Source: Phycisphaerales bacterium (GTDB lineage Bacteria > Planctomycetota > Phycisphaerae > Phycisphaerales > UBA1924). From it: a stretch of 64,000 nucleotides of DNA. Below, one piece after another: positions 58,549 through 62,568 of this stretch. The first letter of the stretch is position 1. Each line of letters starts with the position of its first letter. The stretch lies in the NCBI GenBank assembly GCA_022843565.1, contig JALHNK010000001.1, positions 1-64,000 of the forward strand. The letters are read 5' to 3'. The position numbers were made by a program, and so were the translations under genes. The notes beneath the pieces are model-generated. The model saw nothing but the letters and a program-made list of their open reading frames with translations, was not told the origin of the DNA and made no database searches.

Positions 58549-59730
58549 ATGCGAGGAGAGGGTTTCGGTGCCGGTCGAGGCATCGACACTCGTGGCTGGT
58601 CCATCTACGGATTGGTTCCCTCTCCTATGCCTCGCACGAACGGTTCAAACAACTCGATCCCATCGGACCGACCGGCTGACGACGCCGAGGCCGGGCTTGA
58701 CGCATTGGCACAGAACTCGGTCCCCGAGTCGCGTCTGGTCGGTTCCTCGCCGGCGATGATCAAGCTTCGCAAACTCGTCCACGCGGTTGCACAAAAAGAC
58801 TGCACTGTGCTCATTCGGGGTGATTCGGGCACCGGCAAGGAGTTGGTCGCCCGGACACTGCACGATCAGAGCAAGCGCGCCCAGGGTGCCTTCGTCGCCG
58901 TTGATTGCACCGGTCTGCGCGACACGCTCCTGGAATCGCAGCTCTTTGGCCATGTCAAGGGCGCGTTCACCGGGGCCGAGCAGAACACCATCGGCTTCAT
59001 CCGCGCCGCCGACGGCGGAACACTGTTCCTCGACGAGATCGGCGAACTGGAGCCCAAGACCCAGGCCAAACTGCTGCGAGTTCTGCAGGAGCGGGTCGTC
59101 GTGCCGCTGGGCTCGGTCAAGCCGGTGCCGATCAATGTCCGCATTTTCGCCGCCACGCATCGCGATCTGAAGAAAATGGTCGCCCACGGCCAGTTCCGCG
59201 AAGACCTGTACTTCCGTCTCGATGTGGTCACGGTCGCGGCTCCGAAGCTGAGCGAGCGCCGTACTGACGTCGTCCCGCTTTGCGAGCACTTCCTGCGTGA
59301 GGTCGCGGCGCTCTATGAGGAGCCGGTCAAGCGGCTTTCGAGCGAGGCCGTCAAGGTGCTCAACGCCTACGACTGGCCGGGTAACGTGCGAGAGCTCGCC
59401 AACGCCGTTGAACACGCCGTGGTCTTCAGCAAGCGCGCAGAGATTGACGTCCTGGATCTTCCGGATCGCGTGCGCGGCGTCTCGGCCGAGCCGCTCAAGC
59501 TGGATCTGGTGGACGGGCCGATCATCCCGCTGGAGAGCGCCGAGAGGGGCCTGATCGTGCGGGCTTTGAAAGCCACCAATGGCAACCAGAGCCGCGCCGC
59601 AGAGATGCTGCTGATCGACCGTCGCCGGTTGAATCGAAAGGTCCTGAGGTACGGGCTCGATCACCTGATCACGCCGGGTGCAGACGAATCGACACCGATG
59701 CCGCGCTCCGCGCGGGCCGCCGGTGAATGA
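58549..59730 (+). CDS. Sigma-54-dependent transcriptional activator without a receiver domain
   Basis: A 393-residue bacterial enhancer-binding protein. A low-complexity N-terminus of about 60 residues takes the place of a receiver or sensor domain. The AAA+ domain follows: Walker A GDSGTGKE near 91, the sigma-54-contacting GAFTGAEQ near 140, Walker B GGTLFLDEIGEL near 160, and the Arg-finger region REDLYFRLDVV. A C-terminal Fis-type helix-turn-helix (GNQSRAAEMLLIDRRRLNRK, about 345-365) binds enhancers. Start 58549 has a GGTGGG Shine-Dalgarno; ATG 58627 is an alternative. A near-consensus sigma-54 promoter lies 770 bp downstream, so a local target is likely. Its activity must be controlled in trans or by its amount. 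Confidence 0.93.
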   Translation: MRGEGFGAGRGIDTRGWSIYGLVPSPMPRTNGSNNSIPSDRPADDAEAGLDALAQNSVPESRLVGSSPAMIKLRKLVHAVAQKDCTVLIRGDSGTGKELVARTLHDQSKRAQGAFVAVDCTGLRDTLLESQLFGHVKGAFTGAEQNTIGFIRAADGGTLFLDEIGELEPKTQAKLLRVLQERVVVPLGSVKPVPINVRIFAATHRDLKKMVAHGQFREDLYFRLDVVTVAAPKLSERRTDVVPLCEHFLREVAALYEEPVKRLSSEAVKVLNAYDWPGNVRELANAVEHAVVFSKRAEIDVLDLPDRVRGVSAEPLKLDLVDGPIIPLESAERGLIVRALKATNGNQSRAAEMLLIDRRRLNRKVLRYGLDHLITPGADESTPMPRSARAAGE

Positions 59731-60497: not shown

Positions 60498-60513
60498 TGG
60501 CACGCGCCGTGCA
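60498..60513 (+). promoter_or_regulatory. Sigma-54 promoter (-24/-12)
   Basis: TGGCACG-CGCC-GTGCA matches the consensus TGGCACGNNNNTTGCA at all fixed positions except one (T to G). The invariant GG and GC are separated by exactly 10 bases. Transcription would start near 60524, 41 bases before the ATG at 60565. Confidence 0.75.
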
Positions 60514-60564
60514 TTACCACGCCGGAGAGAGGCGGTCCCACGACCGAAGGGAGTGTTCCTGGTC

Positions 60565-61011
60565 ATGTCTGGCCGCGTTTCATCTTCAGTCATCGTCGTG
60601 AAGTACGACGATGAGATGCTCTCCGGGCTCAGCCGGTGTGTGCTTCGGCACCGCTGGAGCGTTCTCGATGGCCGTGGTGGCAAGCCGCTGGTCAAAGAGA
60701 TCGTGTGCTCGCAGGTCTCGCTCCTGCTGTTGCAGGTGCCCAGAGACCGCGCGCCGGCCTTGGATCTTCTCGAACGGTTGCAGCGGCTGTGGAGGCCTCT
60801 GACGACGGTTGTTCTGGCGAGTGATGAGTGTGAAACGTTAGAGGCAAGCCTGCGTCGCGTCGGAGTGACGGCGTATCTCGGCCCGTCAAGCACGCAGGAA
60901 GTGATCGAGGGTGTGCTGAAGCAGGTCGCGCCGGGTTGCCTTCAGGCGATCGGCACGGGCAGCGAGGTTGAAGTGAAAGTCGGGAAGACGAGCAAGCGTC
61001 GGGTGAAGTAA
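60565..61011 (+). CDS. Receiver-like protein lacking the phosphoacceptor Asp
   Basis: A 148-residue protein. The order of secondary structure resembles a response-regulator receiver: SVIVVKYDDEMLSGLSRCVL, VCSQVSLLLLQVPRDRAPAL, LTTVVLASDECETLEASLRR, VTAYLGPSSTQEVIEGVL. At the end of the third strand, where Asp is expected, the sequence is LLLLQVP, so it could not be phosphorylated in the normal way. A Lys-rich tail follows (VKVGKTSKRRVK). GGGAG lies 11 bases before the ATG. It follows a sigma-54 promoter and the receiver-less activator gene, and may replace a receiver domain in trans. The family is tentative. Confidence 0.72.
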   Translation: MSGRVSSSVIVVKYDDEMLSGLSRCVLRHRWSVLDGRGGKPLVKEIVCSQVSLLLLQVPRDRAPALDLLERLQRLWRPLTTVVLASDECETLEASLRRVGVTAYLGPSSTQEVIEGVLKQVAPGCLQAIGTGSEVEVKVGKTSKRRVK

Positions 61012-61070
61012 GTGATCAACGGGCCCAGTCAGGGCTCGATTCAGGTTCGAGTGTGATTTCAGTTGTTTCA

Positions 61071-61201
61071 CGTCGGTGAGGATCAGCGGCAACGGACTGC
61101 CTGGTTACTGCTGGTTGGTGGAATATCACGACACTCCTTCCTCCCACCGCTGACCGGCGGAGAGAGAGCGAGGTGGGACGTGCCGCTGATCCCCGCCGAT
61201 G
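61071..61201 (+). ncRNA. Candidate structured RNA element, copy A
   Basis: The ends pair in a long stem: 61071-61094 against 61179-61201, about 22 pairs with one mismatch and one bulge. Inside, TCCCACC (61142-61148) pairs with GGTGGGA (61172-61178). A core of about 60 bases (61108-61169) is shared with copy B, including ATCACGACACTCCTTCCTCC (61124-61143) and GGAGAGAGAGC (61159-61169). The strand is assigned from neighbouring genes; the pairing alone is symmetric. No known RNA family was recognised. Confidence 0.6.
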
Positions 61202-61268
61202 TGAGACGAGTTGACAACCAAAGAGCGAGATGAGATTCGATGACCGATGCGTGCGAATGCGTCCGTGA

Positions 61269-61371
61269 CGATCGACGGCGGGATCAGTGGATTCTGCTGG
61301 TGGGCAACATCACGACACTCCTTCCTCCCAGTCTACCGGTGGAGAGAGAGCCCTGAGAACGCCGTCGATCG
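61269..61371 (+). ncRNA. Candidate structured RNA element, copy B
   Basis: The outer stem is perfect over 12 bp (61269-61280 against 61360-61371) and is unrelated in sequence to the outer stem of copy A. GGATCAGTGG (61281-61290) corresponds to GGATCAGCGG in copy A. The core 61294-61351 matches copy A closely: CTGCTGGT, then CATCACGACACTCCTTCCTC (61309-61328), then GGAGAGAGAGC (61341-61351). Confidence 0.6.
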
Positions 61372-61389: not shown

Positions 61390-61416
61390 TCGTGTCGGCC
61401 TAGAGAACCGACACGA
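61390..61416 (+). other. Perfect hairpin after the tandem elements
   Basis: A 9-bp stem TCGTGTCGG / CCGACACGA closes loop CCTAGAGAA. No U-run follows, so it is not a standard terminator. It may be part of the same structured leader. Confidence 0.55.
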
Positions 61417-61577
61417 CCTGTTTCGACTCGCAGCCCCGCTGGCGAGAGAGAGCCCGCCCAGTACCCGAGAGGGTGTTGTGGCGATTTCCACGGTCGGTCT
61501 GATCGTGTGATCTCGTCTGGAACATCGTAAATCTGTGCGCCTCTGCACATGAGCCTCGGGGGGTCTTGGAGTCCGCG

Positions 61578-61757: not shown

Positions 61758-62568
61758 GCGCCTCAACTGAAATCTTGATCGTTCCCGCTCGTTTGGCGGG
61801 ACCGAAGATGTGTGACGACGACACCCTCGCCATCTTCAACGCCCGCGGCTCTCCCTCACCGGTTTCCGCGGGTTTTCATTTGGGCCCGCCGATTCTGCGA
61901 AGCTCGTCACGCGGCGTTTGTGACGATTCCCCGCAGAGACCGTGCCCCGACGTCGCCTTGTGCGCTTGGGCACCTGGGCTGTACGGTTCAGACGCTGCGA
62001 CGCCACTGGCCCGGCTCGAATGAGCCTCGGACTGGTCATGCGTTCGCGTCAGCTCCACTGCGGCGCCACGCTTGCACCACCGCTTGCCGCGCGTCGCCCG
62101 CGCGAGCGATCGGGCCGAGCTGCGAACCTCACGAAGTCCGACGTCTCAACCAAAGCCGCGCCGAACACCCGCGACGCCATCGCCAGCACGCTGGCGGACC
62201 TGAATCAACTTCGTCATCATCCCTCGCGGCCGCCCTCGGGCTGCCGGTGATCGTGACAACAAACGTCCTCCTCGCGCCGTTCGCGGCCGTGCTGACCGCG
62301 ACCGCCGCTGGGGTGATGACCTCAGTCATGGCGTCGGCGATCGTCGTCACGATGCAACGTCACGACGTTGAGTATCGAGCTCGTTGCAACCCCACGGCCC
62401 GTGCGTCGCCGATGTCTCCATCGCGATCGGGCACGAAGACCCATCGCTCGTTACGGGACGGCGTGCCAGTCGACGTTACCCCGCGCCATTGCGGATCTTC
62501 GCGCGGACTTGATCGAAGAACCGGCGGAGTGGCTGGCACGCCGCGTGGCAGTCGTGTATGCTGGAGCC

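Follow-up and report, generated by a model that had tools for sequence, protein, structure and literature searches.

Tandem copies of a structured RNA element beside a predicted sigma-54 activator point to a new RNA family in Phycisphaerales

We analysed a stretch of 64,000 nucleotides from a Phycisphaerales bacterium (the window; its genome is denoted G000, and related genomes and loci carry G and L numbers). The region 61071-61371 consists of one element, present twice, which, as judged by comparison of homologous loci, belongs to an RNA family that Rfam does not contain and that is linked to a predicted sigma-54 switch. A nearly constant apical loop carried on freely varying stems suggests that these are small regulatory RNAs of a new family. 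We give an even chance to the reading that the copies are tandem small RNAs which a dedicated sigma-54 activator would switch on and which would act through their C/U-rich loop, an arrangement resembling the Qrr RNAs of Vibrio in wiring, not in sequence. The relevant features of the window are the following:

58549-59730, + strand: sigma-54 activator gene, with an AAA+ Sigma54_activat domain and a Fis-type HTH, without a receiver domain (Pfam, orthologue search)
60498-60513, + strand: -24/-12 (sigma-54) promoter-like site TGGCACGCGCCGTGCA, 11 of 12 matches (motif scan; same place in nine genomes)
60565-61011, + strand: pseudo-receiver gene, receiver fold with the phospho-acceptor Asp replaced (alignment, structure model, structure matches)
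61080-61192, + strand: RNA copy A, modelled part; its outer stem reaches about 61068-61204 (folding, covariance model)
61122-61146, + strand: apical loop of copy A, AATATCACGACACTCCTTCCTCCCA (repeats, folding)
61159-61169, + strand: purine-rich strand GGAGAGAGAGC of copy A (sequence, folding)
61269-61371, + strand: RNA copy B (folding, covariance model)
61306-61330, + strand: apical loop of copy B, AACATCACGACACTCCTTCCTCCCA (repeats, folding)
61341-61351, + strand: purine-rich strand GGAGAGAGAGC of copy B (sequence, folding)
61434-61453, + strand: motif CCCCGCTG..GAGAGAGAGC (recurs in all nine genomes)
61842-61876, + strand: terminator-like hairpin CCCGCGG/CCGCGGG with the loop CTCTCCCTCACCGGTTT, followed by TTTTC (sequence)

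Copies A and B share direct repeats of 25 nt (96% identity), 17 nt (82%) and 29 nt (69%), which are equally spaced at 182-186 nt. Each copy is enclosed by an inverted repeat of 27 nt, located at 61065-61091/61181-61207 for A (85% complementary) and at 61261-61287/61353-61379 for B (78% complementary). The predicted folding energies were -81.3 kcal/mol for A (z -8.15) and -56.9 kcal/mol for B (z -4.23), and in both cases 0 of 200 shuffled sequences were as stable. The two folds have a common layout of outer stem, short middle stem, asymmetric internal loop, inner stem (14 pairs in both) and an almost identical apical loop of 25 nt, AAYAUCACGACACUCCUUCCUCCCA. The 3' side of the internal loop reads AGAGAGAG, and in both copies this loop holds the purine-rich strand GGAGAGAGAGC. 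The outer stems differ in sequence between the copies, yet both pair, with about 23 pairs in A and 12 uninterrupted pairs plus 6 more in B. The repeats, inverted repeats and folds thus bear out the sequence-only reading of this DNA, which had described two copies with a shared core, each within a long terminal stem, and outer stems that differ but still pair (about 22 pairs in A and 12 in B). The comparison with Rfam that it had proposed gave no match at or above the gathering threshold (cmscan, window and five related loci), and a relaxed search of the A/B region returned chance-level matches only. Directly 3' of copy B (61390-61416) lies a perfect 9-pair hairpin with the loop CCTAGAGAA, and G001 has at the matching position a hairpin with a different stem sequence and the loop CCTGAGAAA. 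The sequence TTGACAA at 61212-61218 recurs in the array spacers, before or between copies, in G000, G001, G129 and G126, and could be the -35 box of an additional promoter.

Relatives of the element, which were absent from the sequence-only reading, place the observation well above chance. The covariance-model search it had called for brought the total to 18 copies in 8 genomes, belonging to five genera of one Phycisphaerales family. Each genome has one to five copies, always in one array and downstream of the pseudo-receiver gene. The window contains two; searching with the loop sequence revealed three in tandem in G001, a Phycisphaerales genome of the same genus, and two in the more distant G033. 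The arrays in G129 (two copies), G128 (five), G126 (one), G125 (one, near a contig end) and G036 (two) came to light through searches with the small protein whose gene lies immediately upstream. Among these genomes, G033 and G129 are metagenome-assembled and belong to the Phycisphaeraceae. Two covariance models, R1 built from seven copies and R2 from 18, found no further convincing member when run on 163 family genomes, 400 from the order and 397 from the class, sets that overlap and were scanned with stricter filters at which weak matches are lost. The exact loop gave no match in genome and viral contig collections, the pattern being too strict for relatives. Weak loop-pattern matches in G053, G032, G030, G051 and G039 were rejected because they fold differently, model matches in G122, G184, G200, G307 and G420 because they proved on reading to be coding sequence or unrelated hairpins, and an Omnitrophota loop-pattern match (L063) because it did not fit the covariance model. 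G145 possesses the activator and the pseudo-receiver, and the models recognised no RNA in it, which counts against the small-RNA reading. Locus L039 of this genome shows, 3' of the pseudo-receiver gene and near a PEP-CTERM-like gene, CTCCTCTCGCTCGCG in repeated stretches and then a hairpin, perhaps a divergent equivalent of the array.

The alignment of all 18 copies indicates that the RNA structure is under selection. Changes on both sides were seen in 21 of the 26 pairs, pairing cells reached 91.5% as against 70.9% in shuffled alignments, and cells changed on both sides numbered 87 against 27.8, with a covariation score of 0.589 against 0.209. The structure had guided the alignment, which biases these counts. 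Not one of 500 shuffles equalled the alignment in pairing, two-sided changes or covariation score, and the score fell below 0.1 when the partner column was slid by 1-3. G-U pairs outnumbered A-C pairs 77:13 on the + strand, a count subject to the same bias; such an excess is expected if + strand RNA is under selection, and an unfitted comparison of strand energies went in the same direction, weakly (p 0.06). Most copies formed a like rod when folded one by one. The proposal of an unrecognised structured RNA under structural selection, made from the sequence of the window, is strongly supported by the covariation among homologues that it had asked for and by the lack of an Rfam match. A protein-coding reading of the copies was rejected, as the stems covary and the lengths vary out of frame. 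The loop CGACRCGACA(A)CUCCUUCYYYCC was kept in most copies, within an open apical loop of 25-33 nt; two G128 copies have an altered loop, CACACAUCCCUCCCCC. Since the loop is largely constant while both stems vary, it is the likely working part of the RNA.

With regard to expression, motif matches tie the putative RNA to sigma-54. In all nine genomes examined, i.e. the eight with the RNA and G145, the pseudo-receiver start is preceded, at about 110 nt or less, by a TGGCACG-N4-TTGCW site (10-12 of 12 matches), while about 0.009 sites with at least 10 of 12 matches are expected per genome from the window's own background. Copies a, b and e of G128 have sites of their own (12, 11 and 12 matches; 64, 71 and 69 nt upstream), and the single copy of G125 has a 12/12 site 150 nt ahead of it; in the other genomes a site is found only before the pseudo-receiver gene. 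The site at 60498 is the only one in the window, so A and B would share one transcript with the pseudo-receiver gene. The scan for sigma-54 sites gave these two copies no promoter of their own, which counts against the small-RNA reading. As to a wider sigma-54 regulon, the window genome has one perfect site elsewhere (C201), and sites with one mismatch were in no excess over the control. This 12/12 -24/-12 site (C201:3064; locus L099, 1500-2139) is divergent from another sigma-54 activator gene. The roughly 600 nt beyond the site contain CCCCGCTGGCAGAGATTGAGAGAT and no convincing ORF; a second sigma-54 RNA is possible there.

Orthologues of the activator (E below 1e-90) were found in 9 of the 163 family genomes, which are exactly the eight RNA genomes and G145, and all nine encode RpoN. 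The activator gene adjoins the locus in the window, G033, G126, G128, G129 and G145. In G001, G036 and G125 it lies elsewhere, away from the array, which counts against the small-RNA reading. The neighbouring pseudo-receiver protein has no Pfam match; comparison of its structure model (pLDDT 83.9) with known structures gave matches to receiver domains as well as to 4dad and 4dn6, CpaE-type proteins of pilus assembly. In an alignment of the nine sequences, read by eye, six have Gln at the phospho-acceptor position, two have Glu and one has Val, and the conserved receiver Lys is not kept. The combination of receiver fold, replaced Asp and lost Lys is the reason for calling it a pseudo-receiver. 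The loop of the window's terminator-like hairpin, CUCUCCCUCACCGG, was also seen, by reading, at the locus end in G001, G033, G129 and G128, and it occurs a single time in the window genome.

The pattern CCCYGCTG-N(0-10)-GAGAGA matched in all nine genomes, and its reversed control gave 0 matches. Some matches lie in the pseudo-receiver 5' region (GGAGGAGAGAGAG-AUG), some within the array and, as a variant, one where a PEP-CTERM-like gene of G129 begins. Others belong to a separate, very conserved intergenic RNA-like element without an Rfam match (G000 C86, G033 C101, G125 C26, G128 C137, G145 C5). This second element (about 1403-1490 of locus L138 in G000 C86; also loci L130, L131, L133 and L143) has a core of 54 nt, GCAGGGCGCCAUCGUUAGACAGCGCCCCGCUGGAGGAGAGAGAGAUC, flanked by genes for an epimerase and a secreted protein, and a CUCUCCUCC stretch about 100 nt downstream of the core could pair with GGAGGAGAG in several genomes. 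A 28-nt stretch of the second RNA recurs in G128, with one C/U difference, where it immediately precedes the start codon of the pseudo-receiver gene. It is conceivable, if improbable, that these parts make up an RNA circuit new to Planctomycetes, in which the sigma-54 tandem C/U-loop RNAs would be joined by an unlinked conserved RNA whose CCCCGCUGGAGGAGAGAGAGAU copies the ribosome-binding-site region of the regulated genes, so that regulator, target and decoy would share one recognition sequence. The start regions of PEP-CTERM-like proteins at L016 3834-5362 (G033) and L134 (G129) have GAGAGAG just before the ATG, and two PEP-CTERM-like genes lie directly 3' of the array in G033. We do not claim a link between PEP-CTERM genes and the array, as the genes with GA-rich starts are near it in G033 and elsewhere in G129, and the pattern is not general.

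Vibrio provides the best-known cases of multicopy small RNAs under a sigma-54 activator. The Qrr RNAs, which are activated by LuxO, resemble the array RNAs in being several siblings with one conserved unpaired core and in being linked to an NtrC-class activator and to sigma-54 promoters (PMC4211561), the latter predicted here for three copies in G128 and one in G125 and elsewhere only before the pseudo-receiver gene. Unlike Qrr, the array RNAs are without a sequence or Rfam match, stand in tandem at one locus instead of being dispersed, and fold into a single long rod whose apical loop is large; their activator lacks a receiver domain and has a pseudo-receiver as neighbour. RoxS and FsrA of Bacillus likewise have a C-rich unpaired region suited to G-rich ribosome-binding sites, and the array genomes hold a second GA-rich RNA much as Bacillus has the RosA sponge (PMC8216469). 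In contrast to RoxS and FsrA, to which they have no homology, the array RNAs are under putative sigma-54 control and in tandem copies, and loop pairing is here a proposal. Weinberg et al. (PMC2864571) list Rhodopirellula-1 and other candidate structured RNAs in Planctomycetes; the window and related loci matched no Rfam family, and the literature searched contained no close counterpart in Planctomycetes.

By analogy with Qrr and RoxS/FsrA, we favour small RNAs that would pair their loop with purine-rich translation starts. The activator would turn the locus on, and the pseudo-receiver would perhaps restrain the activator or signal to it. A single transcript starting near 60525 of the window would cover the pseudo-receiver gene as well as copies A and B and end at the terminator-like hairpin, 61842-61876. 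The long stems would shield the hairpins or be cut to free them, and the C/U-rich loop CACUCCUUCC, whose composition complements that of purine-rich ribosome-binding sites, would pair with target mRNAs and block translation, several copies giving a higher dose. Complements of the loop showed no enrichment, and the pseudo-receiver start ranked 34th of 549 in loop pairing; its ribosome-binding site, a good partner by eye in G000 and G001, was rejected as not significant. Against the GA strands, 89% of permuted partners were as good and the pairing was no better than with shuffled GA strands, while against the second GA-rich RNA 12-69% of shuffles did as well, which is not significant.

The absence of an RNA partner in these pairing tests fits a protein-titrating sponge, in which the repeated loops or GA strands would sequester an RNA-binding protein other than CsrA. 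Such sponges are exemplified by CsrB and RsmZ, which sequester CsrA by means of many ANGGA motifs in hairpin loops. The array RNAs share with these the repeated hairpins and the constant unpaired sequence, but their loop is C/U-rich and lacks ANGGA, which makes CsrA itself unlikely, and Rfam gives no match. The suggested CsrA/Rsm target is not supported: the GGA sits at the base of the inner stem, no conserved apical loop contains ANGGA and the best-conserved part is C/U-rich. With one to five copies, the number of hairpins is also low for titration, and we regard a sponge as unlikely, though worth keeping in mind.

Alternatively, the hairpins could be a cis element of the sigma-54 operon, controlling stability or downstream expression from the 3' part of the pseudo-receiver transcript. 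The array always follows the pseudo-receiver gene and, with a sole sigma-54 site preceding that gene in the window, the copies would share its transcript. However, three G128 copies and the G125 copy have their own site, the genes 3' of the array vary between genomes, and mere stability needs no conserved loop sequence; we consider this reading rather unlikely. The sequence-only reading had offered either a tandem leader or two small RNAs, perhaps acting in trans. Its small-RNA half gains from the 3 of 5 G128 copies with a sigma-54 promoter of their own, whereas its leader half loses ground, as the ORF of the 59-residue membrane protein to be served has no detectable homologue at related loci and the G036 array, by reading, directly precedes an unrelated gene.

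Unpaired purine-rich and pyrimidine-rich strands in nearly every copy would also allow the C/U-rich loop to pair with a GA strand, whether its own or that of another copy, so that a larger RNA fold arises; this is highly improbable, since the loops pair with their own GA strands no better than with permuted partners or shuffled strands, a pseudoknot inside one hairpin would have no linker, and two genomes have a single copy. A MITE, REP or protein-binding palindrome, i.e. a DNA-level or mobile repeat without RNA function, would explain long inverted repeats in tandem, but is disfavoured and has a negligible chance given that the copies are confined to one locus per genome and not dispersed, that neighbouring copies differ in their stems with loops fixed, and that G-U prevails over A-C (77:13).

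The 18-copy alignment suffices to start a new RNA family entry. If the preferred reading of activator-controlled small RNAs is true, an RNA family inherited together with a pseudo-receiver and an activator of its own would provide an independent case of Vibrio-type wiring, at a defined and testable locus.
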